Assembly (NCBI GenBank): GCA_003313425.1
Contig: NHZP01000085.1
Coordinates: forward strand, 1 to 64,000
Direction of reading: 5' to 3'
DNA from: Pseudopyrenochaeta lycopersici
Lineage: Eukaryota > Ascomycota > Dothideomycetes > Pleosporales > Pseudopyrenochaetaceae
DNA: 64,000 nt
In this document: in pieces, positions 15,209 through 54,973 of the stretch
Layout of the letters: every line of letters starts with the position of its first letter
How positions within the stretch are numbered: position 1 is the first letter of the stretch
Made by a program: the position numbers and the translations under genes
Notes under the pieces: model-generated
Seen by the model: the letters and a program-made list of their open reading frames with translations, nothing else
The model's database searches: none
Told to the model about the DNA's origin: nothing

Positions 15209-15328
15209 AGTTGAAAATGTGATTCTTCAAGTGTATAGATTGACCTATGGGCCTGTGTGTACTTATATACATGTAGACTGTCCCTGTCTACATAGGCAGA
15301 CAAGCCACAGACTCCACCGTGGCGTATT

Positions 15329-15497
15329 AGTTGAAATGTGTTTCTTCAAGCGTGTATATTACTATATGACCTTATAAGTACTTATATACTTGTAGGCTTG
15401 GTCTGCCTGAATAGGCAGACCCGCCACAAGCTCCATTGTGGCTTGCTTGCCTATAAGGCATCCACGTCACCTTGTCACATGCTGTTTCAAAACAACT
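15329..15497 (-). repeat. Solo copia-2 LTR
   Basis: A 169-bp repeat, AGTTGAAATG...AAACAACT on the plus strand, differing from the two LTRs of the complete copia-2 (32436-32604, 38530-38698) at only a few positions. It is flanked by GTATT on both sides (15324-15328 and 15498-15502), a 5-bp target duplication. The target lies inside the solo copia-1 LTR. Confidence 0.9.
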
Positions 15498-17882: not shown

Positions 17883-17926
17883 ATAGGCATATACGCCACC
17901 TCGTCACGTGCTGTTCAGAAACAACT

Positions 17927-18851
17927 CAGGGATCCCCGCTATCTCCCATCTTGTTCCTTTACTTCAATGCGGGCTTGGTCTCATCCAAGATAAACCGCAA
18001 TAAAGGGGCAATAGCTTTTGTAGACTACACTGCTTGGGTCACTGGGGCGTCAGCAGAGGAAAACACCTCTTTGCTACAAGAAACAGTAGTAGCAAAAGCA
18101 GAGCAATGGGCGCGGAAGAGCGGTGCCTCATTTGAAGCTGATAAAACGGCCTTCATCCACTTCACACGCAGGAACAATGCAACATCAAACCGGCCGATCG
18201 TCGTCAATGGAGAAGCAATCCATCCACAATCGGAGGTCAAAATCCTTGGGGTGGTCTTCGATCAGAAACTTCGGTTTCACCAACATGCGGCCAGAGCCAC
18301 CAAGAGAGGTGTGAGGGCAGCTCTAGCTCTGAAGCGCATGAAAGGGATGACGGTAGGAGCAGCTAGGCAACTGTTCACCGCAACAGTGACACCCACGGTC
18401 GACTATGCGTCCCCGATATGGTCTATGAGTCTGACAAGTCGGACCATCAGGATGCTAAACCAGATCCAGCGGATTGGAACGCAAGCGATAATAGGAGCCT
18501 TTCGTACCGTGGCGCTAACCAGGGCCGAAGTGGAAGCGGATATCGAACAACTCGAGACGCGCCTGTGCAGACAGAAATACAACTTCTACGTCAAGTGCCA
18601 CACCCTCCCGGCAAATCATCCGTGGTGGAAGATACGCAAGGGTATAGACACGAAGAACAAGCGCTTTCCTTCACCGCTCCAGCAAGTGGCAGCGAAACTG
18701 GAGTCAGTTAATCTTATTGGGCTGGAGAGGATTGATCCGTTCTGCATACCCCCGTGGCAACAAGGATTAAAAGCCAACATCCTTAGTAGAGAAGAAGAAG
18801 CAAAGAAGTGGGCAGACGAATCTGAAGATTTAAAAATCTTTGTGGATGCCT
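17927..18851 (+). pseudogene. LINE ORF2 fragment, copy 2 (3' half, truncated)
   Basis: It starts at CAGGG directly after the solo copia-1 LTR and matches the minus-strand copy at 13355-15208 residue for residue over about 300 codons, except one extra Glu in a GAA run (SREEEAKK). It carries the same defective RT box (FVDY in place of FVDD). The similarity stops at IFVDA, just before the RNase H domain would continue, and the next bases are TATCAATCAATC. That resembles the LINE 3' tail, so an internal deletion down to the tail is possible. Confidence 0.85.
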
Positions 18852-22089: not shown

Positions 22090-23763
22090 ATGGCGACACC
22101 GTGGCCTCGAAGGGCGACATGGCCTTCCCCGCTTCGCGAGCATGCTACCGCCCTCAGCGCATTTCTTCACGATGTGCTGAACACTATCGAGCGCAATGGT
22201 AGCCAGACCGTGCCAGCGGACCTTGCTGGAGATGTCATTCGCGGGGCACTGACGTTCGTCTTGAAGACGCAGCACACGCCTGACCTTGGCACTATCTGCG
22301 ACGCCCTCAGGGTCGCACAAACTGAAGCTAAAGCTACTGCGGAACACACCGCACAAGCCCTCGATCAGATCAAGAGCGAGCTCAAGAACACTACAGAAAT
22401 CATGCAACAGACAGCTGCAAGTATACAGCAGAATGGTAACACAGCAGAGGAGGCGAGGGCCGCTGCGAAAGAAGCAACAGAAGTAGGGAAAGCGACCCTA
22501 GAGATGGCGAGAGAGATCAAGAATAAAGCACCACAACAGCAGACGAACGGGCCAGTGTCATACGCTGCAGCGGCAGCTAGAGGTCCCCCACTAGCAGGTA
22601 CATATAATACACAGAGTCGCAAAGCACCAATTGTGCAGACGCAACGTGAGGTCATCGTGAACATCAGAGATCCGCTCACCGTACAGGCCCTTCGGGCGAT
22701 GAACCCCCGCAACCTTAAAGCCCACGTGGAGCGTGCAATCGAGCAAAGCGGGAACGAGAACATTGCAAGCGTGAAGATTGTGTCATCTAACCAGCTTAAG
22801 AGCGGAGACCTGAGCGTCAAGGCAGCCACTAGTACTGAAGTCGAAGCACTCCGACAGTTCGCAGACGATTGGGCCATGCGCATCGGCAACGGGGCCAGCA
22901 TACAGATTCCGACGTACGGCGTCCTTGCTCACGGCATCCGCACTAACACGATGGATATGGACAAGTTCGAAGAGAACAGGAACCAGATTCTGCAGGACAA
23001 CAGACCGTTCATTCCCCAGGCTGAGATCCGACACATAGGATGGCTGACCAGAGACGCTGCCGTTAAGATCGCATCAACTATTACCATTGAATTCACCAAG
23101 CCAGAGGACGCAAACAAGATCATAGACGAGGGCCTAGTCTGGCAGGGCGAGGTCTTCCAGTGCGAGCGATACGAGAGACAGTGCCGCGTGAAGCAGTGCT
23201 TCAAGTGCCAAAAATACGGCCACATAGGAACCCAGTGCAAGGCACCAACAGCATGTGGCTACTGTGCGCAGGAACACGACACCCGGGACTGCCCAACCAA
23301 GTCGGACCGGAACGCGCCCAGGAAATGTACCCTCTGCCGTGGCGACCACGAAGCTTGGAGCCGCCAGTGCCCAACCAGGAAAGACGAGATTGCCAAAGCA
23401 AAAATGGCATACGAGATGCGGCCTCACTACCACTATGTACCCGAATCCAGAGGAAGGACCGTGCAGCTGGAGATGCCTGCTACTGTGCGTAGAAGCAGAT
23501 CCGGCCAGAACGCGGCATCAACACAGGTCGTCCAGCTCACCAGGAACCGATCGCAGCCCGGACGAGGACAGAAGCGAACCAATACTGGAACGACAATCAA
23601 CCTAATGGACCAGGAAAACATGCCGCCATCAGGAGCTGGCAGCCAGCGACCACAGAGGACCATCATGCCGAGCCGTAGAGCGCTAGAGGCGATTGGAGTC
23701 AACACACAACTGCCACAAAGCAGCACTCAGCATATGGAAATCGATTCTACGACTGAAGCATGA
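22090..23763 (+). CDS. LINE-A ORF1 (gag-like RNA-binding protein)
   Basis: An intact 557-codon frame. ORF1 proteins of Tad1-clade LINEs coat the element RNA for reverse transcription. The N-terminal half is alanine/glutamate-rich and predicted helical (about residues 75-160). The central domain (VNIRDPLTVQALRAMNPRNL, then a conserved block to about residue 350) is followed by three zinc knuckles: CFKCQKYGHIGTQC, CGYCAQEHDTRDC and CTLCRGDHEAWSRQC. The C-terminal tail is basic and polar. The stop overlaps the ORF2 start by four bases (ATGA at 23760-23763), an arrangement that fits termination-reinitiation. Confidence 0.85.
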   Translation: MATPWPRRATWPSPLREHATALSAFLHDVLNTIERNGSQTVPADLAGDVIRGALTFVLKTQHTPDLGTICDALRVAQTEAKATAEHTAQALDQIKSELKNTTEIMQQTAASIQQNGNTAEEARAAAKEATEVGKATLEMAREIKNKAPQQQTNGPVSYAAAAARGPPLAGTYNTQSRKAPIVQTQREVIVNIRDPLTVQALRAMNPRNLKAHVERAIEQSGNENIASVKIVSSNQLKSGDLSVKAATSTEVEALRQFADDWAMRIGNGASIQIPTYGVLAHGIRTNTMDMDKFEENRNQILQDNRPFIPQAEIRHIGWLTRDAAVKIASTITIEFTKPEDANKIIDEGLVWQGEVFQCERYERQCRVKQCFKCQKYGHIGTQCKAPTACGYCAQEHDTRDCPTKSDRNAPRKCTLCRGDHEAWSRQCPTRKDEIAKAKMAYEMRPHYHYVPESRGRTVQLEMPATVRRSRSGQNAASTQVVQLTRNRSQPGRGQKRTNTGTTINLMDQENMPPSGAGSQRPQRTIMPSRRALEAIGVNTQLPQSSTQHMEIDSTTEA

Positions 23764-25732
23764 ATCAGCACACCACATTAAGCATACTACAGTATAACGT
23801 GCGCAAATCGAGAGATACAGTGATGGCGACTCTGCTTCGAGATTCTAAAGTCCACGAGTACGACATTCTAGCCATCCAGGAGCCGTGGAGGAACCCGTTC
23901 ATGGCGACAACTCACCACCCAGCGAAGGACGTTTTCCATCTCTGCTACCCAGCAGCAGCCGAAGAAGGCCCAGCCAGAGTCTGCTTCTTCATAAACAAGA
24001 GAATAGACCATAAGCAGTGGCGATTCAAGGAGCACACGAAAGACATCTGTTCTCTTATTATTGAGCCTAGCGAAGCACGACAGGAGCAGCAACGACTGAC
24101 TATACACAATATATACAACCCTACAAGGAACAGTATTAACACCGGATCTACGCTGACGGATATTCGTACAGTCCTTAACGAGCACAGGGACAACGAGCAG
24201 ATACTTCTTGGCGACTTTAACCTGCATCATCCCCTGTGGGGAGGGTTGAACGTCAGACGCATAGATCTAGAGGCGGAAGAGTTAATAGCGATCATAGAAG
24301 ACTTTGACCTTAGCAATACACTGTCTCCGGGAACTATCACATACGAAGAAGCGGCTTGGCAATCTACCATCGACCTGTGCCTGGTCACCGTGGGCCTCAA
24401 CGACAGGGTGATCAGAAGCCAGGTCGATCGCGATCTCGACCACAACTCAGACCATCTACCGATATGCACCGTCTTGGATACGACTGTGCAGTACCTAGAC
24501 AAGGCATCTCAGAGGAACTGGAGGCGCATGGACGAGAAAGCATACACAAAAGCCCTGCAGCAAGCCCTGCCACCGACACGCAGACCCGCGACAAAGATGG
24601 CACTTGATAGCTACGTCCATGAAGTGATTACGGCGATCAGAAGCGCAATCGACAAAGCAGTTCCGCAAACATGCTTCTCACCCCGAGCAAGGGAGGGATG
24701 GACTGTGGAGTGCAAGGCGGTACTCGCAGAAGCGAAAAGACTAAAGAGACTACACAGCCAGTATAACACAGAGCAATCGTGGGAAGAGTACCGCGAAGCT
24801 AGAAACCGCAAAGCAAGAACGATCCGCAAAGCGATGACAAAGATGCATAGAGAACGAGTAGAAGACGCGGCACAGTCGCCAGACAAGCTCTGGAAGCTTG
24901 CTAGCTGGGCGAAGACCCGGGGCAACGTAGCGCCTCGGGTTACGCCTAGCATACGAAACCCGACAACACAGCGCGAGGTTACAGAGCCAGCGGACAAGGC
25001 AGACTTGTTCCGCGATGTCTTCTTTCCTCCACCACCAGAAGCAGACCTTGAAGACATCCGGGACGCTGAGTACAACGGCCAGATCGAGCTGCCACCCATC
25101 ACAGAGAAGGAAGTGAGGGACGCCATCCGTGCAGCGTCACCGCGCAAAGCTCCCGGTCCAGATGGTATCATCAATCGAGCCTTACAGGCAGGATCGAAAC
25201 TACTTACACCCCACCTGACGACCATCTTCAACCGCAGCCTACGTCTGGGATACTGCCCATCACATTTCCGCGAATCGACTACGGTCGTCCTGCGAAAGCC
25301 CGGCAAAGACAACTACACCGTGCCAAAAGCATACCGACCAATCGCGCTACTCAACACAGTTGGCAAAACGATGGATGCAGTGATCGCCCGGCGGCTCAGT
25401 CACCTAGTGGAAACACATTGTGTGCTCCCAGCGACACACATAGGCGGCAGGAAGATGCGCTCCACTGAGCACGCGCTCCATGCCGTCACGAGCAAGATAT
25501 ACAGTGCATGGAACAGAGGAGCTGGTCAAGTGGCCAGTCTCCTGCTGCTTGACGTCTCTGGAGCCTTCGACAACGTCTCACACACGCGGCTGCTGCACAA
25601 CCTGCGGAAGCGAAGAGTAGACGAGAAGACGGCCAGGTGGATTGCAAGCTTTCTCAGTAACAGACATACCCGTATAGCTATCGATGGCTTCAAGTCACAA
25701 GAGTATAGCATAAACACAGGCATACCACAGGG
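23760..25732 (+). pseudogene. LINE-A ORF2, truncated: endonuclease and RT N-terminal half
   Basis: The frame starts MNQHTTLSILQYNVRKSRD and encodes an APE-type endonuclease (AIQEPWRNPF, ILLGDFNLHHPLWGG, and DHNSDHLPI with the catalytic Asp/His). Reverse-transcriptase motifs follow (SPRKAPGPDGI, KAYRPIALLNTVGKTMD, LLLLDVSGAFDNVSH), up to INTGIPQG. At 25733 it runs into the copia-1 LTR and stops artificially at 25778. The YxDD box, RNase H and 3' UTR are missing. No premature stop is present up to the insertion, so the copy may have been functional before it was hit. Confidence 0.85.
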
Positions 25733-25901
25733 AGTTGTTTCTGAACAGCACATGACGAGGTGGCGTATATGCCTATAGGCAAATACGCCACGATGGAGCC
25801 TGTGGCTTGTCTGCCTATGTAGACGGGGACAGTCTACATGTATATAAGTACACACAAGCCCATAGGTCAATCTATACACTTGAAGAATCACATTTTCAAC
25901 T
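25733..25901 (+). repeat. Copia-1 5' LTR
   Basis: 169 bp, AGTTGTTTCTG...TTTTCAACT, with a TATATAAGTAC core about 60 bases before its end. The final T overlaps the primer-binding site. Target duplications at related insertions show that the true ends are AGTTG and CAACT rather than a bare TG...CA. Confidence 0.9.
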
Positions 25902-25982
25902 GGTTATGAGCCCGGTTGTGCATACTGCACCCTTTCAGTGATAGTCCGAATCCGGTCTTCAAGAAGTCAAACGTTTGCAGCC

Positions 25983-28900
25983 ATGGCTAGCATCAAACTC
26001 ACCAACGAATCCGTTGAAGCACGGGTCGAAGTACTTCAAGGCCAGGAAAATTACCTTGCATGGAAGCGCGACCTGAAGTTCATCGCCGAGGCAAATAATG
26101 TCTGGAATATCCTTACCGGAGAAGAGACTATCCAAGACAAGCCAACGCGACCAACCCTCTCTGGGGTTTCGACTCAAGCCAAACCAGGCAAGAAGTCGAA
26201 CGCCAAAGACGCTGACCCAATCGGCAGCAGTGTGGATGCTCAGACAAGCGATCAGCTGAGTCTGATCATCCAGTTCTACAAGCTCGATCTTGACGAATAC
26301 GAAAAACAGCAGAAACGTCTTCGATATGCACGAGGCCTCCTCTCCACCACCATCAACACAGCCCTTCGAGGATGCATCAAGGATGAAGAGAATCCACAGC
26401 TGGCAATGGAGAAGCTCAAGGGACTCTGCAAGATGAATGACGCTCGCGCCCTGGACATGACTCTAGGAAAAATCGAACAACTCAAGTTCAAGGGATCAGT
26501 ATCTGATCTTATCAACACTCTCAAAACCCTGCAACAAGACATCATCGACCTCGAGGGCACTTTCAGTGACGAACAACTCATGTCAAAGGTCGTACGCTCC
26601 CTGCCGAACCGTTTCAACAGATTCCTAGATACCTGGAACCTCTTGGCTGGAACAGCTGCTCTTCCACGCGACCTGGTAACTCTTCACGGACATCTTCTAG
26701 GAGTGGAGGCACAGCTGGCATCAGAAAAGGATAACAAAGAGAGTGATGCAAAGAACAAGGGAAGAGAGAGAAAAGACCGGCAACTCTGTGAAGGATGCAA
26801 CAAGTGGGGCACCCACAACGAATCAGAATGCTGGATCGCGCACCCCGAATTCAGGGAGAACAAATTCAACAAACACGAGGAAACCTCGAAACAGTTCAAA
26901 GGACAGGTTAATACCGTCAAAAATACGGGATCCAAGGATCACCACAAACCTCAGTCGCGACATGATCCCAAGCACCCAGGCAGAATTGTGGCCACTGCCA
27001 TGCTCCACCGCAGCAAATGGGAGGCAACATGTGCAAATGCCGGATCAAGCGACAAGATAACGAACCTGGACAAACATACTTCCATGAAGGACGAAGCCAA
27101 AGTCCCGGAATACAACAATCCAGGTGACTCTCTGTATCCAGGAAGGCCACGACTCATGGATGGTCTCAATCCACAAACGATGATGCTGCTCAAGGATGAC
27201 GCAGTGGAACGAAGCTCCAAATGGATTGTTGACTCAGGTGCAAATGTCTGCATTGCAAATGACAAAGCATGGTTTTCTGAATTCCAGAAAATCACATACA
27301 CCGTTGGAACTGCAAATAACGGTGGCCTGCATATCGAAGGAGCTGGAACTGTACTTCTCCAGCTAACTACCGATGGAAATGAACCAGTCGAACTAGAGCT
27401 GCACAATGTGGCCTATGCTCAGGACGCCAGATGCAACATTCTGTCACTCTCTTGGATCGCTGAAAGGGCAAAACTCACAGGAGTCTGGGGAATCAAAGGA
27501 ATATCCATCAGAACTGCTGAAGGTTTTGAAATTGGCCATGCCAGCCTGATTGATGGACTCTTTCACCTACAAATCGACCCACCGGAACACCCAAATGACC
27601 TCCAACCGAGTCAAGGGGAACCAATCTTACTACAAGCGAACAGCACAAGAGATGCTGAAGCAGTGGGAGAAGACTCTACGCGAACTCCGGACCAACAACT
27701 CCCACCAGGAGTTCAGCCACCTTTCGTTGTGTCTCTACTTGATTACGACGACCCAGTCTGGAAATGGCACAGAAGAATGGGACACCTCAGCGTTCAGAGC
27801 TTGAGGGCTCTCCTCAAAGTAAGCAATGGCATTGATCTGACTGACAAACAATTACGGGCAAAATTGGGTACCATCTGTCCTGTCTGCGCTACCACCAGAG
27901 CAGTAAACAGAATCCCTAGAGATCCGGCAACTCGACGAGCCACGAATCCAGGAGAAATAATGCACGCAGATGCCTGGGGACCATATCCCATTGGCGCGTG
28001 GGATGGCACCATATATATTTTGGCCATAACCGATGATGCAACTCGTTTCACCTGGTCAGCAAGATATGCAACCAAGGACAAGATTCCGGAAGTTTTCCGA
28101 CATCTTCATCGGACTATTGAAAAACGGAACAACATGACAATTCGCGCATACCGGCTCGACAACGAATTTCCACTATATGGAGAACTTCGAGACTGGTTCC
28201 AGCGACATGCAATCTCTCTGGAAAACTCAGTACCCTACACGCACCATATGAACGGTGTTGCGGAAAGAGGTTTCCGTACAGACAGAGAACGAGCTTCAGC
28301 AATGCTGCAAGAAGCAACAAACAGCGTCTCATCAACAATTTCCAGGATACTTGGTACACGCACAGAAGAAGCAATGAGGAACGTTTCCCTATCAGAAACA
28401 CTGTGGGTTGAAGCTTTCTCACATGCAATCTGGATCAAAAATAGATCACCATCACGGGCCCTCGAGGGGAAAATAACGCCGTGGGAGGCATTCTACAAAC
28501 TCAAACCAAACCTCGACATCGAACGGATCTTCGGCAGTCGGGTCTATGTCACCTATCCACCAGAGCATAGACAGAAAACCCTTCTCCAACCACGAGGATG
28601 GATTGGGTACTTCGTTGGTTTCGAAACTGAAGCCGTACTGAGAGTTTGGCACCCAGATAAGAAACGCGTCGTACGCATTACTGCACCACGTGTCGACGAT
28701 GGCCAAGGCCAGACCGACGACCATGACGGCGAAACCCTCTCCAATCGAATTCCAATCGGTGACATAACTTTGGATGACGATGCTTCAGACAACGAGTCGA
28801 TCCTGGAAACAACCTCCCAACCCCACGCAAGTAGCCCAGGGAGTTTTCCTAATTCTACACAAACCGGTCCAGAAGTCCCTCGCTACTCAACCCGAAGTGT

Positions 28901-30434
28901 TTCCAAAACCTCTCCCTACTTCGCACAGATTGGTCACAATACTGTGCGCCACCCTGAGGAAGACAGTAACGACCAGGTACATCCATATTCAGACAGTCTA
29001 TCTGAGACCCAAAGCCAGTCTTCAAGTACTTTTTCAGACATCGAACCAGACAATAACCAAGAAGAAGCACGCGAAATGGGCCCCATACATAAAGCGTTTT
29101 CAGAAGCTGGCATTGACTATGATACATGGGACGATGCTTACGCCGTTTACGACTCCCGAAATAGAATTATGCCGCAAGTGAACATACTCACCAGGCAAGG
29201 CACATACTTCTCTAATGGTAGCACTCATGTGCGACATGTAAAACCAAGCGCATCACTGAAGAAAAGGAAAAGATGCCCCCGAGGTCAACCGTCACAAGAC
29301 AAGTGCGAACGCTGTCGTAAGAACGGTCATGTTTGTAAACGATCCGATCCTACCTCGAGATGCGATCACTGCAACACATGCGGCCTCATCTGCTCTTTTG
29401 CGCCGGATGACGACAGGCGAAAGGGACAACCACCACAAGACAAATGTGACCAATGTCGACAAGTAAGAGCCGTCTGTAGACGATCCAATCCCCACTCCAG
29501 ATGCGATAAGTGCCAGTCGGTGAGCCGAGTTTGCTCTTTCGTGCCCGAGGACAACAAGGTACCAAGATGGTCAGACACATATCTTCCACCGGAGAAGAAA
29601 TGCTACGCATGTACCAAAGAACGCCGCCGGTGCCACCTTACAGAGGACCCCAATACTTGCAGGAACTGCCCGATGAGAGGGTACAAATGCTCTTTCAGTG
29701 GAAATGTCCCACGGGGTACACAGGACCCAAAGGACAAATGCAAGCAGTGCAGGAAGACGAAGAGATGGTGTGAGGGGGGCTCAGCAGAGACAAGATGCAT
29801 TCCCTGCCAAAAAGGCAGATTCAGGTGCTCCATGCTGGCTCCTCTAAACGATCCGGAATGTGTTGCCTGTCAGGGGAGCCGAAGATGGGGAAGTGCCAGA
29901 AGATGTCAGGCAATACCATGCCTACACTGTCGAACGTCCGGAAGGACATCCTGCAGTTTCCGTGTCAATCCGAATACTGCGGTGTATCACCCAATACTGC
30001 AGAACCTTCACCCCAAATCAATGTGGCACAGAATTCATGATCTTGGTATTTAGCATGAGTGCTGTGCCCGCTGCGCCGAACTTGGCCAAGACATTGACGC
30101 CATCTTTCATCCGGACTACGAGTTCCCATGCAACATATGTATCGCAAGGCAGGAGCTCCTCGGAACGAAGGAAGGCGCGACGTGTCTACAATTTAATGAT
30201 GATGACGGAGGATATAAACGTTATTTCTTTCGTGGCATTCTGCGGGGCCCTCCACCGCAACGTCTGAGATCACCGCCACCAATGACAGAGGCAGGCACGA
30301 CGATGGGGGAAGACGAAGAAGATTGGCAAACGCTGGATGACTCCCTTGACGAAGATCTCGAAATCCAGGATAGCGAAATGCTCATCGACCCTGCGCTATT
30401 GGAGCCACAAGCCAATCTCGTCATTGCATCCTGC
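25983..30434 (+). pseudogene. Copia-1 gag-protease-integrase with Zn2Cys6 array
   Basis: The start is the ATG of MASIKLTNESVEAR in a good context (GCCATGG). Order of domains: UBN2-type gag (about residues 20-240); one zinc knuckle (CEGCNKWGTHNESECW); aspartic protease (IVDSGANVCIAND); HHCC pre-integrase zinc site (WHRRMGHLS...CPVC); integrase core with D, D and E in HADAWGPYP, YRLDNEFP and GVAERGFRTDRERAS; and the copia GKK-like region. Then come five tandem cysteine clusters (codons at 29304-29954, residues about 1108-1324), the first four exactly CX2CX6CX8CX2CX6C as in fungal Zn(II)2Cys6 DNA-binding domains. An in-frame TAG at 30051-30053 ends the frame. The reading frame then continues open to the solo gypsy LTR at 30435. 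A CAG-to-TAG change would explain the stop. Confidence 0.85.
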
Positions 30435-30621
30435 TGTAACGGGCTAGGCCTATGTCCGAGGCTGCGCCATCGTGCACAGATATACGGCTCGTGCGGGTGG
30501 CTCGCGCTCGTGAACTTTATAACCTCGCGTGGCACTTAATCCTCCCCTTTTTCTTCCCATCTTGGTTGTAGATAGCATCTGGACTAGATAGCTGGAATCC
30601 AGTTACTAGAGACCGCTCACA
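30435..30621 (+). repeat. Solo gypsy LTR inside copia-1
   Basis: 187 bp, TGTAACGGGC...CCGCTCACA, nearly identical to the 3' LTR of the gypsy element at 59148-59334. A 5-bp duplication CCTGC flanks it (30430-30434 and 30622-30626), so it is a true insertion later reduced to one LTR. Together with its duplication it adds 192 bp, a multiple of three, to the copia-1 frame. Confidence 0.95.
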
Positions 30622-32375
30622 CCTGCCTCAAGAAAGGAAATCATTCTCTGTCGCCTTTGCGTCTCCACAGTAGCTCAACAACCTCCACGTTTTCGTCGCC
30701 CGTCTCCCTTCGGGAAACGGCCGACAAGGGGAAGATCACCATGGAGGAAGCCAGTAGGCCAACCATCTGTATGATGTCGGTCTCAGCCAACTTACTTGGT
30801 CCTGAACCACACAACAGGAAGACTGCCTTGGCCTCCACTGAATGGAACCAGTGGGAGCAAGCCATGCAAGAAGAGTACAACAGCTTGCTGGAAAACAAGA
30901 CATAGGAAGTGGTGGATCGACCGACAAACCGCAAAGTACTCACCGGTCGGTGGGTCTTCAAGCGGAAACTTGGCTCAGATGGAGAAGTTGCTCGACACAA
31001 AGCAAGATTTGTCGTGCGAGGCTTCTCACAGATATATGGCCTTGATTTCGATGAAACATACGCCTCTGTCGTTAAGTCAGCATCTTACCGAATACTCTTT
31101 GCACTTCAAGCTCGATATGGCTGGAAGTGCCACCAAATGGATATCAAGACAGCATTTCTCAATGGCGACCTTGAACACGAAATCTTCGTCGAACCACCGG
31201 AAGGCTATCCAGAAGCAAGCAATCATGTTCTTAAATTGTGCAAGTCCTTGTACGGACTAAAGCAGGCACCGAGACAGTGGTACTTCAAACTCAGGGCTTT
31301 CCTCGAAGAAAATGGGTGGAGAGTCTCAAACTTTGATCCTTCAGTCTTCATCAAAGACGACGAGAACCTGATCATGGAAGTTTATGTCGACGACATTAAC
31401 ATCTTCGGCCAAAATGAAGATCGTATCATAGCCATGAAACGTCAATTGGCTTCACGCTTTAACATGACAGACCTTGGCCTCTGTGCTTACTACCTGGGGA
31501 TGCACGTACATCAAGAGGCCAATGGAGATGTTCACCTGCATCAGGAATCATACATCCAGCAGATCCTCAATCGCTATGGATTGCAGGACATTCACCCACG
31601 AAAGACGCCCATGCGAACAAGCCCGAAACTAACCAAAAATGATGGTCCACCAAGAGCTCTTGACTTCCAAAGACGATACCAATCAAAAGTTGGAGCACTC
31701 AACTACGCAATGGTGGTCACGCGGCCGGACATTGCAGAAGCAGTGGGAGTTGTCTCCAGATTCTGTGCAAACCCAACCGAAGAGCATATGAAAGCCGTCG
31801 ATGCTATCTATGCGTACCTCAAATATACACCCAACCTCGGACTTCATTTCAAAAGGAACTGTGCAGATCGAGAACTGCATGCATATGTTGATGCCGACTG
31901 GGCCGGATGTCCAGACACTCGACGTTCTACTACCGGCTACGTTGTCAAACTTGCAGGGAGCCCTGTATCATGGTCGTCCAGAAGACAAAGGACTGTGGCA
32001 ATGTCAACCTGCGAAGCTGAATACGTGGCTGGATATAAGGCCACTCAAGAGATCATCTGGATCCAAAATATGGTCAACGACCTTCGCATCAAAGCCCTGG
32101 AAGCCACATCAACTCCGCTTCTGATTGACAACAATGCTGCACTCAAGCTGACTCGTAATCCTGAGTTACATGACCGCACAAAGCACATTGAACTGAAATA
32201 TCATTTTCTGCGAGAAATGACGCTCAGTGGGAGAATCAATACTCAAAGGGTCAACACCAAGGACAATCTGGCTGATCTCCTCACGAAGCCGCTCCCCAGG
32301 GATGCTCATGAAAATCTGGTGAATGGACTTGGGATGGACAAGAGCTCCTGTATTGGACTCGCCACCTGCAGTTAG
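30622..32375 (+). pseudogene. Copia-1 reverse transcriptase-RNase H
   Basis: The same frame as the upstream polyprotein continues after the solo LTR and is broken once, by a TAG at 30903-30905 in LLENKT*EVVDRP, where copia-2 has TGG (Trp). From 30909 the frame is open for 488 codons. RT motifs include ARHKARFVVRGFSQIYGLDF, QMDIKTAFLNGDL and the active site MEVYVDDINIFG. RNase H shows YVDADWAGCPDTRRSTTGY and ATQEIIWIQN, then LLIDNNAALKL. The C-terminus (DNLADLLTKPLPRD) is family-typical. The enzyme part is intact, but the element cannot make the full polyprotein. Confidence 0.85.
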
Positions 32376-32435
32376 TGGGAGAGTTGTTTCTGAACAGCAC
32401 GTGACGAGGTGGCGTATATGCCTATAGGCAAATAC

Positions 32436-32604
32436 AGTTGAAATGTGTTTCTTCAAGCGTGTATATTACTATATGACCTTGTAGGTACTTATATACTTGT
32501 AGGCTTGGTCTGCCTGAATAGGCAGACCCGCCACAAGCTCCATTGTGGCTTGCTTGCCTATAAGGCATCCACGTCACCTTGTCACATGCTGTTTCAAAAC
32601 AACT
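32436..32604 (-). repeat. Copia-2 LTR (3' LTR of the element)
   Basis: 169 bp with ends AGTTG...CAACT. It resembles the copia-1 LTR in length, ends, TATATAAGTAC core and several internal blocks, so the two are sibling families. Confidence 0.95.
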
Positions 32605-32610
32605 CTCCCA

Positions 32611-35600
32611 CTAACTGCGGGTGACGAGGTTAGTACAGCAGCCCTTGTCCATTCCAAGTCCCTTTACCAGATTTTCAAAAACATCCCTGGGAAGCGGCTT
32701 GGTAAGTAGGTCAGCCAGGTTATCCTTGCTGCTGACCCATTGAGTATTGATTCTCCCACTGAGCGTCATTTTCCGCAAGAAATGGTATTTGAGATCAATA
32801 TGCTTGGTGCGGTCATGAAGTTCCGGGTTTCGAGTCAGCCTGATTGCAGCATTGTTGTCGATCAGAAGCAAAGTTGATGCCACTTCTAGTCCTTCGATGC
32901 AAAAGTCGTTGATCATATTCTGAATCCAGATGATTTCCTGAGCAGCCTTGTATCCGGCTGTGTACTCAGCTTCGCAGGTTGACATTGCCGGCGTTCCCCT
33001 CTGTCTTCTAGACATCCAGGAAATAGGGCTGCCTGCCAGTATGATAACATAGCCGGTCGTAGACCTTCTGGTGTCCGGACATCCAGCCCAGTCTGCATCA
33101 ACGTATGCATGTAGTCCTTGGTTTGAGCAGTTCTTTTTGAAGTGGAGTCCAAGGTTAGGTGTGTGTTTCAGGTACGCGTAAATGTCATCAACAGCTTTCA
33201 TGTGCTGCTCAGTTGGGTTTGCACAAAACCTAGAGACAACTCCCACTGCTTCAGCAATGTCCGGACGCGTGACCACCATTGCGTAATTGAGTGCTCCAAC
33301 CTTGGATTGGTATCGTCTTTGGAAGTCTAGAGTTCTAGGTGGACCGTCATTTTTGGTTAGTTTCAGGTTCGTCCTCATGGGAGTCTTTCGTGGGTAGATG
33401 TCCTGCAGGCCATAGCGTTCGAGTATCTGTTGAACATATGATTCTTGGTGCAGGTGGACGTCACCGTTCGCTTCTTGATGTACATGCATTCCTAGGTAGT
33501 AGACACAAAGACCAAGATCCGTCATGTTGAAGCGTGAGGCCAATTGATGTTTCATGGCAACAATTCGATCTTCCTTCAGGCCGAAGATGTTGATGTCATC
33601 GACGTAAACTTCCATAATAAGGTTTTCGTCATCTTGGATAAAGACCGATGGGTCGAAGTTTGAGACTCTCCACCCATTTCCTTCAAGGAAGGCTCTGAGT
33701 TTGAAGTACCACTGTCTTGGTGCCTGCTTTAGTCCATACAGGGATTTGGACAGCTTGAGGACTTGGCCGCTTGCTTCTGGGTATCCCTCTGGTGGTTCAA
33801 CGAAGATTTCATGCTCAAGGTCGCCATTGAGGAAAGCTGTCTTGATGTCCATTTGGTGACACTTCCAGCCATATCGAGCTTGAAGCGCAAAGAGAATGCG
33901 ATATGATGCCGACTTCACTACCGAGGCATAAGTCTCGTCGAAATCAAGGCCATATATCTGTGAGAAGCCTCGGACGACAAATCTTGCTTTGTGTCGAGCG
34001 ACTTCTCCATCTGAACCAAGTTTCCGCTTGAAAACCCATCGGCCAGTGAGTACTTTACGGTCCGTTGGTCGGTCAACCACTTCCCAGGTCTGATTTTCCA
34101 GTAGGCTGTTGTATTCTTCTTGCATGGCCTGCTCCCACTGTTTCCGTTCAGCTGAGGCCAGAGCAGCCTTCCTGGTGTTTGGTTCAGGGCCAAAAGATTT
34201 GACCGACGCGGATAGCATGCAGACACTCGACTTGTGGGCCTCCCTCATGGTGATTTTCCCCTTGTCGGCCGTTTCCCGAAGGGAGACGGCCGACGAAATC
34301 GTGAAGGAGGGTGAAGTTGGGAAGGCACTTGGAATGCCGGTGGGTTGTCCATATAGGTAGGGTTCATCGGAAGAGGAAAAGGTTGAATCCGTTAGGTCGC
34401 AGTCGGCATCCCATTCATTCTCCATTTTTTGAAGCTCTTGTTGGAAGCAAACAGGAGCTTGTTGAGCGGAATAGAGCTGTTGGTGGAGGCGTAGGGGGCA
34501 CGGGGTGTGTTTTTCTCCTTCGCGACGAGGTGCAACGGCGAGGTTGGCTTGCGGTTCCAGCAGTGCAGGGTCCACAGTTACGTCGTCATATTCGTCCTCG
34601 ATATCTCCGTCAACTGTGAAATCGTCTAGCCCTTGCCACTCTTCCTCATCTGCCCCGATTTCTGTACCTACTTCTGTCATAGGTGGGGGAGAGACTAAAC
34701 GGTGTCGTTCCGGCTGTGTAGCTGTCCGTGGAGCACGACGGAAAAAATATCTTTTATACTCTCCATCATTGCTGAACTTGATACATGAGGTCCCGCGGCT
34801 TTCTTTGCTTCTGGTGGTGTTCCTTGTGACACACGTCTGGCAAGGGAAATCGTGCTTTAGGTCGAGGGCGACACTCTCCTTGCCAATCGTCGCGCAGTAG
34901 TGGCAACATTTGTTTTCCAAGGAGAGACGTTGCACCCTGTCCCAGATTGAGTCTGGACGAACTCTATCCGATATTGGGTGGTAGATGGACGTATGCTGGT
35001 CAATGTAGAACGTGCAGCACACTCTACTAGTGTCCTTTTGACAGGTAGTGCAAGGTCGTTGACAGCACCTTCTTCTGTCACCGTTTTCAATTCTTGATCT
35101 GCAAGTGATACATTCCGGGTCGTTCAAGAGTTCCTTCATGAAAGAGCATCTTGCTTTTCTTTTTTTGCATTGAGTACATTTTGTCGTAGCTGAGCCTCCT
35201 TTACATTTGGTGCGTCTTGTTTTGCAGAGTGTACATTTCTCCTGCGGATCCTGAATAGGTCCATTCCGGCAACTGAATGAACATCGTATTCCGAGATCTC
35301 GGCAGGAGGTACAGAATGTGGGATCGTCGTCCGTAGGAGCGCAAACTTTTCCTTGATTTACGCAGGAAACGCAGTTCTCCGAAGGACGCTGTACTTGGCG
35401 AGACCACCATCTTGGCTTATCGTCCGGAGTGAAAGAACAAAATCGTCTGTCTTGGAGACAGCGATCACACCTTGAACCAGAGATGGATTGTTTGCAGACA
35501 CTGTTCCTTTTCCGGCACTGTCCACATTTTTCTTGTGGTGGCTGTCGTCCGAAACGAACTGGCCGTCTGCCGTTTGGTCCCTTAGTGGCTGGAGTTCTGT

Positions 35601-38448
35601 TTGAAGGTTCGATGGGCTGTGCAACCAGCGTATGTACCTGTGGGTTGGCCCTAGTCCAAATGTGATGGACATGGTTTTCAAATGTCGTATCACCGTTACT
35701 GGTATTCTCAGTGGGTTGATTGGTGATAGACTGGTTCTCCGGAAGAGGAAACACGGGTCCTTCTGAATCGACATCATGATCCGATGGAGGGTCATTTATG
35801 TCGATATCCTCGACAGGAATACGATCTCGGAGAGTTTCAACCTCATGACTGTCGGTCTGCCCTTGTCCGTCATCAACACGGGCGGCAGTGACGCGGACGA
35901 CAGAGTTCTTCTCTGGAGCCCAGACTTTTAGCACAGCTTCGGTCTCAAAACCGACGAAATATCCCATCCATCCTCGCGCTTGGAGTAGGGACTTCCGTCT
36001 GTGTTCTGGTGGGAAAGTTACGTAGACTCGACTGCCGAAGATCCTTTCAATAGCAAGGTTTGGTCTGGTATTGTACAGGGCCTCCCAAGGGGTCTTCTTT
36101 CCTTCAAGCGCTCGAGATGGTGACCTGTTCTTGATCCAGATTGCGTGCATGAACGCTTCGATCCAGAGTGTTTCTGACAATGTTACATTTCTCATGGTCT
36201 CTTCTGTGCGTGTGCCGAGTACCTGTGAGATTGTTTTCGATACACTGTTGGTTGCTTCTTGCAACATTGCTGACGCTCGCTCTCTATGGGTTCTGAAAGC
36301 TCGTTCTGCAACTCCATTCATGTGGTGTGTGTAGGGCACAGTGGTTTCGAGGGAAATTGCTTGTCGTTGGAACCAGTCTCGAAGCGCTCCGTGAGATGGA
36401 AATTCGTTATCAAGCCGATAGGTGCGTATTTCCACATTGTGGCGTTTCTCAATTGTTCGATGAAGTTGTCTAAAAACTTCTGGAATTCTTTCTTTGACCG
36501 CATATCTGGCTGACCATGTGAATCGAGTTGCATCGTCAGTCATGGCCAAGACGTATACACTGCCATCCCATGCTTTGATAGGGTATGGTCCCCACGCATC
36601 TGCGTGCATTAGCTCTCCTGGATTGGTGGCTCGCCGAGTTGCTGGATCTCTGGGGACTTTGTTGATTGCTCTTGTGGTTGCGCAGATTGGACAGATGGCG
36701 CCCAGCTTCCCCTGTAGCTGTTTGTCGGTTAGATCGATGCCGTCGCTTACCTTGAGGAGATCCCTCAGGCTTTGAATGCTGAGGTGTCCCATTCGTCGAT
36801 GCCACTTCCAGACTGGATCATCATAGTCCAATAGAGACACGACGAATGGTGGCTGAACTCCTGGGGGGAGTTGTTGGTTTGGAATTGATATAGAATCTTC
36901 TTCTGTGTCATTGACTTGTAGTGAGATCGGTTCCCCTTGACTCAGTTGGAGGTCATTCGGGTACTCGGTCACCGGCGAGTCAACTTGCAGATGGAAGAGG
37001 CCGTCGATCAGGCTGGCACGGCCGATTTCGAAACCTTCAGCTGTCCTGATGGATATTCCATTTATACCCCAGGCTCCTCTGAGCTTGGCCTTTTCTGCAA
37101 TCCATGAGAGTGAAAGGATATTGCACCTGGCGTCCTGAGCATAGGCCACATTACTCAGCTCCAGCTCTACTGGCTCGTTACCATCGGTGATTAGATGGAG
37201 AGGCACTGTTCCTGCTCCCTCAATGCGCAGTCCGCCGTTGTTGGCAGTTCCAACAGTGTATGCCATTTTCTGGAAATCAGAGAACCAAGCTTTGTCATTT
37301 GCGATGCAGATGTTTGCTCCCGAGTCCACAATCCACTTGGAACTTCGTTCCACCGTCTCATTTTGAAGCAGCATCATCGTTTGTGGATTGATTGTTTTGT
37401 TGCCAGGCCCACTATTTGCACTTGTCGCTTCCCACTTGTTACGATGAACGATGGTAGTGGCGACGACTCTTGCTGGGCGTTTGGGTTTATGTTGTTGTGA
37501 CTCGGTCTTGGGAAGATCCCTGGGTCTTACATTTGTAACGGCATTGGCCTCTTTTTTGAATGGTGTAGAGTTCTGCCCACCCTTGTTGGCTCTGTTTTCC
37601 TTAAGTTCGGGGTGTGTGATCCAGCATTCAGATTCGCTGTGAGTGCCCCATCTGTTGCACCCTTCGCAGAGTTGCCGGTCCTTGTCCTTTCCCTTGCTCT
37701 TTATATTATTATCCTTTTCTGGCATCAGCTGTGATTCTACTCCCAGTAGGTGTCCATGGAGGGTTGCAAGGTCTCGAGGCAGCGCGGGTGTCCCCGCCAA
37801 GAGGTTCCAGGATTCCAAGAACCTGTTAAAACGGTTCGGCAAGGATCGCACAACCTTGGACATGAGCTGTTCATCGCTGAAAGTGCCATTAAGGTCAAGA
37901 ATATCTTGTTGATAGGTCTTGAGAGTGTTGATAAGTTCTGACACAGATCCCTTGAACTTGTACTGTTCGATTTTTCCCAGCGTCATGTCTAATGCTCGTG
38001 CGTCATTCATCTTGCAGAGTCCCTTGAGCTTTTCCATGGCTAGGTGTGGGTCTCCTTCATCTTTGATGCATCCTCGAAGGGCTGTGTTGATGGTAGTGGA
38101 GAGGAGACCACGTGCATATCGAATGCGTTTCTGCTGTTTTTCGTATTCGTCGAGATCAAGCTTGTAGAATTGGATGATGAGGCTCAGCTGGTCGCTTGCC
38201 TGAGTATCCAAACTGCTTTGTTCAGTGTCTCTGGACCTTGTTGCTGGCCCAGAGGAGGCCTGTCCATTGGACAGCGTTGGTCGCGTCGGCTTATCATGAA
38301 TAGCTTCTTCGCCATTGAGAATCTTCCATACATCATGTGCCTCTGCGATGAACTTCAGGTCGCGCTTCCATGCAAGGTAGTTCTCTTGTCCTTGCAGGAT
38401 TTCGACTCGTGCTTCAACGGATTCGTTGGTAAGTTTGATGCTAGCCAT
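32611..38448 (-). CDS. Copia-2 gag-pol polyprotein with Zn2Cys6 array
   Basis: One 1945-codon frame from the ATG of MASIKLTNESVEAR (38448) to 32611. An in-frame upstream ATG at 38550 lies within the LTR. Domains: UBN2 gag; zinc knuckle CEGCNRWGTHSESECW; protease IVDSGANICIAND; HHCC site WHRRMGHLSIQS...CPIC; integrase D-D-E in MHADAWGPYPI, YRLDNEFPS and GVAERAFRTHRERAS; then cysteine clusters (codons at 35526-35014, residues about 975-1145). These comprise three CX2CX6CX8-9CX2CX6C modules and a fourth with altered spacing. RT follows (YVDDINIFG) and RNase H (YVDADWAGCPDTRRSTTGY), ending DNLADLLTKPLPRD. All catalytic residues I can check are present. Cleavage sites cannot be placed. Known copia polyproteins are usually about 1300-1500 residues. 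The excess is mainly the linker holding the cysteine array. Confidence 0.95.
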   Translation of the reverse strand: MASIKLTNESVEARVEILQGQENYLAWKRDLKFIAEAHDVWKILNGEEAIHDKPTRPTLSNGQASSGPATRSRDTEQSSLDTQASDQLSLIIQFYKLDLDEYEKQQKRIRYARGLLSTTINTALRGCIKDEGDPHLAMEKLKGLCKMNDARALDMTLGKIEQYKFKGSVSELINTLKTYQQDILDLNGTFSDEQLMSKVVRSLPNRFNRFLESWNLLAGTPALPRDLATLHGHLLGVESQLMPEKDNNIKSKGKDKDRQLCEGCNRWGTHSESECWITHPELKENRANKGGQNSTPFKKEANAVTNVRPRDLPKTESQQHKPKRPARVVATTIVHRNKWEATSANSGPGNKTINPQTMMLLQNETVERSSKWIVDSGANICIANDKAWFSDFQKMAYTVGTANNGGLRIEGAGTVPLHLITDGNEPVELELSNVAYAQDARCNILSLSWIAEKAKLRGAWGINGISIRTAEGFEIGRASLIDGLFHLQVDSPVTEYPNDLQLSQGEPISLQVNDTEEDSISIPNQQLPPGVQPPFVVSLLDYDDPVWKWHRRMGHLSIQSLRDLLKVSDGIDLTDKQLQGKLGAICPICATTRAINKVPRDPATRRATNPGELMHADAWGPYPIKAWDGSVYVLAMTDDATRFTWSARYAVKERIPEVFRQLHRTIEKRHNVEIRTYRLDNEFPSHGALRDWFQRQAISLETTVPYTHHMNGVAERAFRTHRERASAMLQEATNSVSKTISQVLGTRTEETMRNVTLSETLWIEAFMHAIWIKNRSPSRALEGKKTPWEALYNTRPNLAIERIFGSRVYVTFPPEHRRKSLLQARGWMGYFVGFETEAVLKVWAPEKNSVVRVTAARVDDGQGQTDSHEVETLRDRIPVEDIDINDPPSDHDVDSEGPVFPLPENQSITNQPTENTSNGDTTFENHVHHIWTRANPQVHTLVAQPIEPSNRTPATKGPNGRRPVRFGRQPPQEKCGQCRKRNSVCKQSISGSRCDRCLQDRRFCSFTPDDKPRWWSRQVQRPSENCVSCVNQGKVCAPTDDDPTFCTSCRDLGIRCSFSCRNGPIQDPQEKCTLCKTRRTKCKGGSATTKCTQCKKRKARCSFMKELLNDPECITCRSRIENGDRRRCCQRPCTTCQKDTSRVCCTFYIDQHTSIYHPISDRVRPDSIWDRVQRLSLENKCCHYCATIGKESVALDLKHDFPCQTCVTRNTTRSKESRGTSCIKFSNDGEYKRYFFRRAPRTATQPERHRLVSPPPMTEVGTEIGADEEEWQGLDDFTVDGDIEDEYDDVTVDPALLEPQANLAVAPRREGEKHTPCPLRLHQQLYSAQQAPVCFQQELQKMENEWDADCDLTDSTFSSSDEPYLYGQPTGIPSAFPTSPSFTISSAVSLRETADKGKITMREAHKSSVCMLSASVKSFGPEPNTRKAALASAERKQWEQAMQEEYNSLLENQTWEVVDRPTDRKVLTGRWVFKRKLGSDGEVARHKARFVVRGFSQIYGLDFDETYASVVKSASYRILFALQARYGWKCHQMDIKTAFLNGDLEHEIFVEPPEGYPEASGQVLKLSKSLYGLKQAPRQWYFKLRAFLEGNGWRVSNFDPSVFIQDDENLIMEVYVDDINIFGLKEDRIVAMKHQLASRFNMTDLGLCVYYLGMHVHQEANGDVHLHQESYVQQILERYGLQDIYPRKTPMRTNLKLTKNDGPPRTLDFQRRYQSKVGALNYAMVVTRPDIAEAVGVVSRFCANPTEQHMKAVDDIYAYLKHTPNLGLHFKKNCSNQGLHAYVDADWAGCPDTRRSTTGYVIILAGSPISWMSRRQRGTPAMSTCEAEYTAGYKAAQEIIWIQNMINDFCIEGLEVASTLLLIDNNAAIRLTRNPELHDRTKHIDLKYHFLRKMTLSGRINTQWVSSKDNLADLLTKPLPRDVFENLVKGLGMDKGCCTNLVTRS

Positions 38449-38529
38449 GGCTGCAAGGGTTTGACTTCTTGAAGACCGGAGTCGGACTAACACTGAAAGG
38501 TTGCGGTGTGCAAAACCGGGCTCATAACC

Positions 38530-38698
38530 AGTTGAAATGTGTTTCTTCAAGCGTGTATATTACTATATGACCTTGTAGGTACTTATATACTTGTAGGCTT
38601 GGTCTGCCTGAATAGGCAGACCCGCCACAAGCTCCATTGTGGCTTGCTTGCCTATAAGGCATCCACGTCACCTTGTCACATGCTGTTTCAAAACAACT
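38530..38698 (-). repeat. Copia-2 LTR (5' LTR of the element)
   Basis: 169 bp, identical to the partner LTR at 32436-32604. AATAC follows immediately, then the remainder of the copia-1 3' LTR resumes at GCCACGG. Confidence 0.95.
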
Positions 38699-38818
38699 AA
38701 TACGCCACGGTGGAGTCTGTGGCTTGTCTGCCTATGTAGACGGGGACAGTCTACATGTATATAAGTACACAGAAGCCCATAGGTCAATCTATACACTTGA
38801 AGAATCACATTTTCAACT

Positions 38819-40797
38819 CCCTGGGGTAGCCCTGCCTGCGGTAGGTCCATTATCTCCGTAGTATCGCCATTCACTACCACTGACGCTTTTCGTTGGCTGC
38901 AGAAGTTGACGATCCAGTCCACTAATCGGCCAGGGATTCTCCTGTCCTGTAGTCTTCTAGCAAGCACAGTAACATCAACGCCATTGTAAGCGCCCTTTAC
39001 ATCGAAACTAACTAAGCTCAGAACTCTTCTGTCTCTCCAGGCTTGGAAGACGCTTTCTTGGAGAATAGTCAAGGCTTGAGCTGTCGATCTTCCTTTTCTT
39101 GCCCCAAAATGGCTCTTCGGAAGCAGACGATGCGTCTCCGCTAGGAACGACAATCTTTCTGCTACCACTGCTTCTAGGTTCTTCCCCAAGGTAGTGAGGA
39201 GGGAGATAGGTCGGTATGCCTTTGCTACCGTATAGTCCGATTTGTTTGGCTTCCGCAGAGGCACAATCTTCGCAATCTTCCATGTCCTAGGGAGTGTCGC
39301 GGTCTCGAGGGATACTCTGAACAACGCTACTATGTGGTGTTTGAGGACTGGCCACAGTTGTTGCCACACAATGGCTGGAAAGTCGTCAGGTCCTGGTGCC
39401 TTGTATGGACTGGACGCGAATATTGCCCTGTGCACTTCGGTTTCCGACAGTGGTTCCATTGGCAGGGTCTCGCCGGATCCCTCTTCCTCCTGGTCCTCCA
39501 CGATATCCGCTGGAGGTTTGAAGAACTCTCCTAGTAAACATCTTGCGATGTCACTGTTAGATGTGCTGAGCCCAACGTCTGTCCTAAGAGATGGTATCCT
39601 TGCAAAGGCAGTGCTATGTGATGGATCCAAGTAACGGGCTATGTCCCAGATGTTCCGAGATTCAGCAACAAAGTCCTGCCAGTGAGTCTTCCTTTGATTT
39701 CTGATGGCGTCGTGGTATCTCTTCCGATAGGTTTCTGTCATGTGTTGGAGGTGTGGGTCAACCATGTTCGCTCTCCGTGCTGCTCTTGCCCTATTACGCC
39801 AGTAGGTGTAGCTTTTCCTAAGCTCCGTCAAGTCTTCCGTCCACCATCTCTTCGTATATTGTGATGGCCTGGCTACTGGGACGTGTTTCTCGATTGTTGG
39901 CCCCACGCATTCAGTGATGAACTGGCAGTATTCGTCGACGTCACTGGGGTTTTGTGGCTGTGGGCGAAGCTTTAGCGCTTCAGTGACTCCTTTCCTTATT
40001 AAGTCCCATCGTGCTTTCTTCCAGAGCTTCCTTGGTGGTCCTCTCCTGTGTACAAGATCAATGGAGAATTCCGTGCAGATGGCCATGTGGTCAGAACCAT
40101 GTGCCGTCATGTCCGTCGTGCACCCCTGTACTTCTGACGCGAGTTCCTGGGTCACGAGGATCAAGTCAATTGTTGAATTGTGCTCTCCACTGTAGGAGAG
40201 CCATGTTTCGGTTCCCCTAGGGAGTGGACATTGAAGATCAAATTCGGACATGAGTTGGATGATGGGTTCACCTTCTCCTTGACGGGGAGAAGTTGCCACC
40301 GCATCACCACCCCAGAGCTGGTCGTGCCTGTTAAAGTCCCCAGCGATTAGCAGTTCGACCCGTCTACCATGATTGCGGCGGACGGTCTCGATCGTCGTCC
40401 GAATTATGTTGAGCCTGCTGTTTAGTTCGTCGTCCTCCGGGTCCGATTTAATCGGGACATAGACTGAAATAGCAAGTAGGGGTCCAGTCTCCAACTCGAT
40501 TAGAAGTGCCGCTATATCGGTGGATCCGGTCGATACCGGTCGTGCAGTGATGTTTTTGTGTACCCAGAGCATGGCTCTAGGTCGTGGGTTCCCTTCAGAG
40601 TGCTCTGGAAGGAATGGTGTCCAGTATGGGTGGGATTGAGGGGCCGTCTTGTATTCTCCGTCTTGGTTATGGAACAAGTATGGTTCTGAAATGAGAAGTA
40701 GGCTGAAGCCTTCGAGGTCGTGATCGTTCATGATGCTGTGTTGCGCTTCGCTCATTTTCCTTACGTTTGCTTGAAGTACTTTGAACTTTCTAGACAT
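38819..40797 (-). pseudogene. LINE-B ORF2, truncated: endonuclease and RT N-terminal half
   Basis: Start placed at the ATG of MSRKFKVLQANVRKM (40797), which overlaps the ORF1 stop by eight bases (ATGTCTAG). The longer in-frame extension runs back over ORF1 zinc-knuckle codons and is not credible as N-terminus. The APE endonuclease is visible (LLISEPYLFHN, ELLIAGDFNRHDQLWGG, TAHGSDHMAI). RT follows (SPYKAPGPDDFPAIVWQQLW, KAYRPISLLTTLGKNLEAV, LVSFDVKGAYNGVD), ending at LPQAGLPQG. The active-site half is absent. The frame is free of stops up to the junction. Confidence 0.85.
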
Positions 40798-54800: not shown

Positions 54801-54973
54801 TGTAACGGGCTAGGCCAGTGCTCGAGGCTGCGCCGTCGTGCACGGATATACGGCTCGTGCACGGAAAACTTTGTACCTCGCGTGGCACCCAATTCTCCTC
54901 TTTTCTTCCTATCTTGGTTGTAGATAGCATCTGGACTAGATAGCTGGAATCCAGTTACTAGAGACCGCTCACA
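54801..54973 (+). repeat. Gypsy 5' LTR
   Basis: 173 bp, shorter and more diverged than the 3' LTR and than the solo copy at 30435-30621, mainly in the middle (ACGGAAAACTTTGTACC region). Confidence 0.9.

Follow-up and report, generated by a model that had tools for sequence, protein, structure and literature searches.

What is an array of fungal-type cysteine clusters doing inside a retrotransposon polyprotein? The question is raised by a 64,000-bp stretch of the Pseudopyrenochaeta lycopersici genome (positions 1-64000 of contig NHZP01000085.1, or C85; hereafter, the window), which contains two nested elements, copia-1 on the plus strand and, inside one of its long terminal repeats (LTRs), copia-2 on the minus strand. 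Loci elsewhere in the 62.7 Mb searched are likewise named by contig (C5, C37, C54 etc.). A sequence-only reading of copia-1 had proposed that Zn(II)2Cys6-type modules located behind the integrase guide integration. The answer obtained here is larger than the array itself: copia-1 and copia-2 are sister families of one copia (Ty1-like) lineage, each of which appears, from the sequences around its insertions, to integrate at one DNA sequence, the first within long interspersed nuclear elements (LINEs) and the second within the LTR of the first. The arrays of these site-specific LTR retrotransposons are probably the domains that direct them to their target sequences, acting through a DNA-binding capacity that we infer.

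The array itself is as that reading described it. The copia-1 polyprotein, Gag through array, occupies 25983-30053 (+) and ends with a stop codon within the region of the array. Of its five cysteine clusters, the first four have exactly the spacing CX2CX6CX8CX2CX6C (residues 1123, 1170, 1222 and 1268 of the frame 25938-30053 (+), with first cysteines at 29304, 29445, 29601 and 29739), the fifth (residues 1308-1339 of that frame) is a variant, and the residues following the second cysteine are mostly basic. The proposed limits, 29304-29954 (+), also hold: the first array cysteine lies at 29304, the last one in range ends at 29954, and the corresponding residues are 1108-1324 when numbered from the ATG at 25983. 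The placement between integrase and reverse transcriptase (RT) is likewise borne out by Pfam, with the integrase core (rve, residues 669-768, 27942-28241 (+), E=2.9e-8) and an SH3-like domain behind it (SH3_retrovirus, residues 854-913, 28497-28676 (+), E=3.3e-11) preceding the array, and RT/RNase H (RVT_2, E=4.2e-67) following in a separate frame at 30909-32372 (+). A sixth, looser cluster past the stop (30060-30185 (+)) is in frame in the intact C36 copy aligned with copia-2.

Given 42 cysteines in 1371 residues, one such six-cysteine pattern would be expected about 1e-6 times; the presence of four, together with arrays in copia-2 and at nine loci of the genome (seven copia-1-type and two copia-2-type loci, with three or four strict motifs each), indicates that the pattern is not due to chance. 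The copia-2 array (34783-35526 (-)) occupies the equivalent place in its polyprotein and has three strict-type motifs (X5-12 between the third and fourth cysteines) and two looser clusters. An RT search returned 128 copia matches in the genome, from which we sampled 12 other elements picked to span different families (32-50% RT identity); the strict motif was absent from the integrase-RT gap, in three frames, of all 12; in one of them, L073, one of the three frames contained a lone loose CX2CX4-12C match. A search of viral contigs with copia-2 produced 13 pattern matches and no relatives. Partial RT matches at C37:217974, C5:2106098 and C23:134306 (80-92% identity) are perhaps remnants of further families of the array lineage.

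To locate insertions, the genome was searched with the copia-1 LTR, flanks unused, and the 59 matches were assigned to 22 insertion loci, to cross-matches of the copia-2 LTR and to an internal inverted repeat matching itself; the numbers of loci are lower bounds. In all 22 copia-1-family loci found, the visible outer flank or flanks lie at one base-exact LINE position, which on the LINE strand corresponds to G-L/I-P-Q-G^S-P-L-S-P of the reverse transcriptase, the five duplicated bases being CAR GG of the Gln-Gly codons. Both flanks are usable at 15 loci: the 5-bp duplication is perfect at 11 of them, its copies are one transition apart at three, and one locus joins flanks of two LINEs. The duplications carry whichever variant, CCCTG/CAGGG or CCTTG/CAAGG, the host LINE has. 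Thirteen of these 15 insertions are antisense and two are sense to the LINE, an excess that fits oriented docking and could also reflect survival. The duplication count omits seven loci in which one outer flank is unseen or the locus is rearranged (C37:217111, C5:1959834, C54:206311, C85:15209-17926, C85:25733, C95:54394 and C3:2287234); their visible LINE flanks are at the same site. Two pairs of matches (C5:2085815 with 2095342, and C5:2102485 with 2123891) were each taken by judgement as one decayed element, and two rows of a 125-bp element (see below) were not counted among the 15.

The host LINEs are diverse. A blastn comparison that took in 12 of the 22 loci distinguished a group A, with flanks 98-100% alike (one further member being ~89% alike on one side), and a group x, with flanks 99-100% alike and insertions in both orientations. 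Other flanks were 72-76% similar to group x at the nucleotide level, and those of the C27 and C49 loci had no similarity to the rest over 600 bp beyond pieces of ~40-50 bp. The occurrence of such distinct groups at the same site implies that at least five flank groups were struck independently; C62:162965 has yet another flank, as judged from its first 30 bases. The 22-bp pattern GATAGCGGNGANCCCTGNGGTA is matched by nine of the 15 rejoined filled sites and occurs uninterrupted five times, always as an empty LINE site (C46, C51, C54, C78 and C86). A large share of the available exact-type sites would thus appear to be filled, a rough figure with zero mismatches allowed. Both full copia-1-type copies checked (C28 and C36) have identical LTR pairs. 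Another copia-1 at C54:200164 (L062) has a long open frame, a 5' end that is cut off and a 3' LTR at the LINE site; no 5' LTR was found in the stretch fetched.

Copia-2 repeats this behavior in a different target. All five full-length copia-2-type LTR loci (C85:32436, C37:172400-178663, C37:217230, C5:1959887 and C85:15329) are located at AATAC of copia-1 LTR positions 50-54, with AATAC abutting on at least one side, and they occupy five different copia-1 LTR copies; two partial copia-2-like matches were left out of this count. At the level of the assembled sequence, 22 of 22 and five of five loci found share one exact position per family, and duplications, flanks and orientation indicate that the insertions were independent; both families are in this sense site-specific, their array-bearing elements having integrated repeatedly, with base precision and 5-bp duplications.

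A third element, of 125 bp with ends AGTTG..CAACT, was matched 12 times, at 11 loci. The LINE site accounts for four loci (C34, two on C37, and C32:101211), including one perfect CCTTG duplication and the C34 copy flanked on both sides by CCCTG; two are at the AATAC site (C62:163019 and C3:2287289); and five lie elsewhere, two of them (C25 and C6) in one shared other repeat. Since it is found at both targets, this element may have been mobilized by both integrases; no coding copy of it was found in this genome. Copies of the LTR-like sequence include L101-L105, L107, L090, L095, L096 and L106 (C51:107310), the last being followed by the same primer-binding site as in copia-1.

Exact targeting is not general to copia elements in this genome, as judged from the scattered sites of an array-less family with 174-nt LTRs. 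The eight elements examined (40 LTR matches of 218 candidates were scored) have eight different 18-nt flanks; seven have each their own 5-bp duplication and the eighth (C88:30018) has none. This control is relatively distant (33% RT identity) and was used because the stretches retrieved for the nearest array-less relatives (~50% RT identity, C54:311981) showed no LTRs.

A further line of evidence comes from the alignment of the intact copia-1-type frame of C36 with copia-2. Identity is 80% in Gag, 77% in the protease part, 82% in the integrase core, 80% in SH3, 93% in RT and 84% in RNase H, and only 40% in the array, where copia-1 has one extra module. Nonsynonymous divergence (dN) amounts to 0.54 for the array and to 0.59 and 0.27 for the linkers on either side, as against 0.03-0.13 for the other domains; synonymous divergence (dS) is saturated in the array, and hence we make no claim of positive selection. 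Array type agrees with target in nine out of nine array-coding loci. A domain that confers specificity would be expected to diverge in this manner between families whose targets differ.

The assignment of the modules to the Gal4-type Zn(II)2Cys6 family (PF00172), as originally suggested, could be upheld in part. The spacing of Zn(II)2Cys6 domains, CX2CX6CX5-12CX2CX6-8C, is found in four motifs of copia-1 and three of copia-2. A seven-module profile searched against PDB ranked LAC9 and LEU3 first, a match lost by two column-scrambled control profiles, and all five Foldseek matches of a module model were Zn2Cys6 domains (E 1.2-7.3). Helices are predicted at module residues 7-12 and 26-30, after the first and fourth cysteines, which we take to match the arrangement of the Zn2Cys6 fold. 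The likeness to a Gal4-type domain thus comprises the six-cysteine spacing, the basic residues after the second cysteine, a modelled helix after each CX2C and the PDB/Foldseek matches to LAC9, LEU3, PUT3 and Pho7; the differences are the tandem arrangement within a retrotransposon polyprotein, scores under the Pfam threshold and targets that share no CGG.

Several results weigh against this assignment. The proposed PF00172 search never reached the gathering threshold (21 bits): the domain was not found in a Pfam scan of the whole polyprotein, and among single modules four of 10 pieces were listed (E 0.003-0.011, best 17.9 bits), all below threshold. Moreover, three of 20 shuffles of copia-1 modules with fixed cysteines also matched PF00172 (E 0.0064, 0.0097 and 0.52), the best at 17.0 bits, so that part of this signal reflects only the spacing and Pfam provides no proof. 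The confidence of the module model (predicted local distance difference test, pLDDT, of 61.5) is modest, as are its Foldseek E-values, and an AlphaFold2 prediction of the whole array from a two-row alignment (pLDDT 36) was not used. The modules are, on balance, likely (albeit not proven) to be Zn(II)2Cys6 domains, and they would be expected to bind zinc. The array could instead consist of another kind of small zinc module, which arose within the element and binds DNA or RNA in a manner of its own, a reading compatible with a targeting role. The subthreshold PF00172 scores, the differing spacing of clusters 5 and 6 and the similar scores of some shuffles fit it; the Zn2Cys6 domains at the top of the PDB profile search and in every Foldseek match, the helix positions and the loss of the match upon scrambling do not, and we consider it rather unlikely.

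As to function, the idea that the array guides integration is strongly supported by the exact sites, the divergence of the array and the scattered control, while the reading of DNA by the array itself is something that we infer. In the mechanism that we favor, copia-1 would integrate where LINE reverse-transcriptase genes encode the conserved motif PQG^SPLSP and copia-2 at one position of the copia-1 LTR. The array would stay on the mature integrase, where its modules would bind zinc and DNA, reading a site of perhaps 20 bp and docking the integration complex on the target sequence; docking would in turn fix strand transfer at the constant 5-bp stagger. It would thus be the array, and not a host factor or another part of the integrase, that picks the site. 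More tentatively, one may envision an evolvable DNA-reading code on the integrase, with tandem Zn2Cys6-like modules gained, lost and diverging, each array choosing one genomic word. The families would form a food chain, copia-2 preying on copia-1 and copia-1 on LINE RT genes, with a 125-bp element that looks as if moved by both integrases.

Some observations count against array-based targeting. The linkers beside the array diverge as well (39% identity before it and 59% after it), and the correlation therefore does not single out the cysteine modules; the array-target link comes from two families. The target variants have no CGG triplet, the half-site usual for Zn2Cys6 domains, in common. No array match was found at the three partial RT matches listed above, possibly due to truncation, and the partial, diverged copia-2-like LTRs (C76:114042 and C27:14306) lie elsewhere than at AATAC. 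The site might instead be chosen by the integrase core and SH3 domain or by a host protein bound there, the array serving in RNA binding, packaging or multimerization. The linker divergence is in line with this, as are precedents: Ty1, Ty3 and Ty5 rely on host proteins, according to the portions available of the literature, and the accessible part of PMC2527525 describes ZAM integrase as binding DNA directly, with a basic C-terminal part needed for LTR binding. On the other hand, the core and SH3 remain 80-82% identical despite unrelated targets (vs. 40% in the array), and targets that are base-exact in dissimilar contexts and in both orientations are easier to reconcile with reading of the DNA than with tethering to chromatin or to a transcription factor. 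Overall, a choice of site by the core or a host factor seems unlikely to us.

That the shared position was merely inherited, from one ancestral insertion that multiplied through LINE copying, segmental duplication, gene conversion or LTR recombination, is very improbable: solo LTRs in near-identical LINE copies (several, with 98-100% flanks) and four rearranged loci (C85:25733, C5:1807783 and C3:2287234, which join flanks of different LINEs, and C85:15209-17926, with the same LINE half on both sides) would suit it, but the same codons were struck in LINEs without blastn similarity outside short pieces, the duplications carry each LINE's own bases, both orientations occur within one LINE type, LTR pairs are identical in C28 and C36, and copia-2 repeats the pattern in another target and five different LTR copies. 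Copying or recombination as the general cause of the shared site is contradicted for five flank groups, and it may explain some look-alike solo LTRs.

At the window locus, a LINE cut at GIPQG (22090-25732 (+); first frame 22090-23760 with a weak zinc knuckle, endonuclease/RT frame from 23760) ends with the target-site bases CAGGG (25728-25732); empty sites exist in this LINE type (L082, L083 and L085). The copia-1 5' LTR, delimited by LTR comparison and flank analysis, follows at 25733-25901 (+; 169 nt, ends AGTTG...CAACT), and then, by direct reading, the primer-binding site GGTTATGAGCCCGG (25902-25915 (+)), presumably of the half-tRNA-iMet (anticodon arm) type, a candidate assignment. This copy is broken by the stop at 30051-30053 and holds a 187-bp repeat (30435-30621) that is 99.5% identical to 59148-59334; a further copy of this dispersed repeat lies at 54801-54973 (84-99.5% identity among copies). 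The first part of the 3' LTR (positions 1-54) lies at 32382-32435 (+) and includes the left AATAC copy (32431-32435). Nested after LTR position 54 is copia-2 (32436-38698 (-)), with identical 3' (32436-32604 (-)) and 5' (38530-38698 (-)) LTRs and a single open frame of 1945 amino acids from ATG (32614-38448 (-)). The second part of a copia-1-type 3' LTR (positions 50-169; 38699-38818 (+)) begins with the second AATAC copy and is followed by CCCTG (38819-38823), the target-site bases of a different LINE on the minus strand (endonuclease/RT, 38819-41034 (-), cut at GLPQG). The two flanks, one inverted relative to the other, come from different LINEs and represent the same half of each, and the locus therefore looks recombinant between two same-target insertions. 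The copia-1 LTR also contains a near-palindrome, GTGGCGTATATGCC..GGCAAATACGCCAC, with the copia-2 insertion in its second arm.

By domain order, copia-type RT, 169-nt LTRs and 5-bp duplications, both elements are, from their sequences, members of Ty1/copia (Pseudoviridae). The Pfam order is Retrotran_gag_2, gag_pre-integrs (both slightly under the cut-off), Pol_BBD, rve, SH3_retrovirus and RVT_2; a copia-type RT and no chromodomain match in the polyprotein scan (E up to 10) set them apart from chromoviruses. LTRs usually end in TG..CA; here the ends are AG..CT, with 5-bp inverted termini AGTTG/CAACT (25733-25901 and 38530-38698).

An older footprint at 15209-15497 (-) consists of the second part of a copia-1 LTR (15209-15328) and, at the same AATAC, a copia-2-type LTR (15329-15497); the copia-1 LTR has its initial 44 bases at 17883-17926. 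Between the two pieces of this decayed LTR sits a DDE_Tnp_1_7 (presumably piggyBac-like) transposase gene (15703-17694 (+)), adjoined by a 930-bp inverted repeat (14287-15213 / 17922-18851, 99.7%). A host gene at 44565-45530 (+) encodes an AA9 (GH61) protein with a CBM1 domain, a combination suggestive of a filamentous fungus.

Known systems for comparison include ZAM, a Drosophila LTR retrotransposon of the gypsy group, and the R1/R2-type non-LTR retrotransposons, which operate without an integrase. As far as the available text of PMC5911963 goes, the integrase C-terminus of Ty1 and Ty5, also copia elements, binds their targeting partners; they target regions via Sir4 or Pol III subunits, whereas here a single exact sequence is the target, and an array of modules resembling DNA-binding domains is the candidate for reading it. 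ZAM is similarly sequence-specific, its integrase binding target DNA directly, but the target is a short CGCGCg and a zinc-cluster array is not mentioned in the accessible part of the source, which states that few retroviruses choose an exact sequence (PMC2527525). R1/R2-type elements likewise insert strictly at a single site of a conserved multicopy gene; strict specificity of this kind, as put in the portion available of PMC3706591, was known only in non-LTR retrotransposons before Dada transposons. The target here is another transposon's RT gene. Chromoviruses too have an accessory module at the integrase C-terminus (PMC3605345, available part), but they belong to the gypsy superfamily and the module is a chromodomain instead of cysteine clusters. 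LTR elements of plants also nest in other elements, with only weak motif and region preferences in what is accessible of PMC6911290. Chromodomain and DnaQ-like exonuclease are described as well-known accessory domains of LTR elements in the available part of PMC6338049, with no mention of zinc, and the term zinc finger is absent from that of PMC5445492. Among the matches listed in searches of titles and abstract starts of openly licensed papers, there was neither a copia element with Zn2Cys6 modules nor any LTR element confined to a LINE codon. Overall, sequence-specific LTR integration has a precedent in ZAM, and we did not find the array architecture and the LINE target described in the searchable portion of the literature.

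The integrases of LTR retrotransposons and retroviruses are seldom selective for an exact sequence, and fusions of integrase to zinc-finger proteins have been engineered for exact sequence choice; nature may have used fungal-type zinc clusters to build a sequence-choosing integrase. Provided that the array is indeed the reader, these families would allow direct tests of how sequence specificity is acquired by an integrase, and would bear on the use of conserved transposon codons as a multicopy target (cf. ribosomal DNA for R2) and on the change of specificity between sister families.
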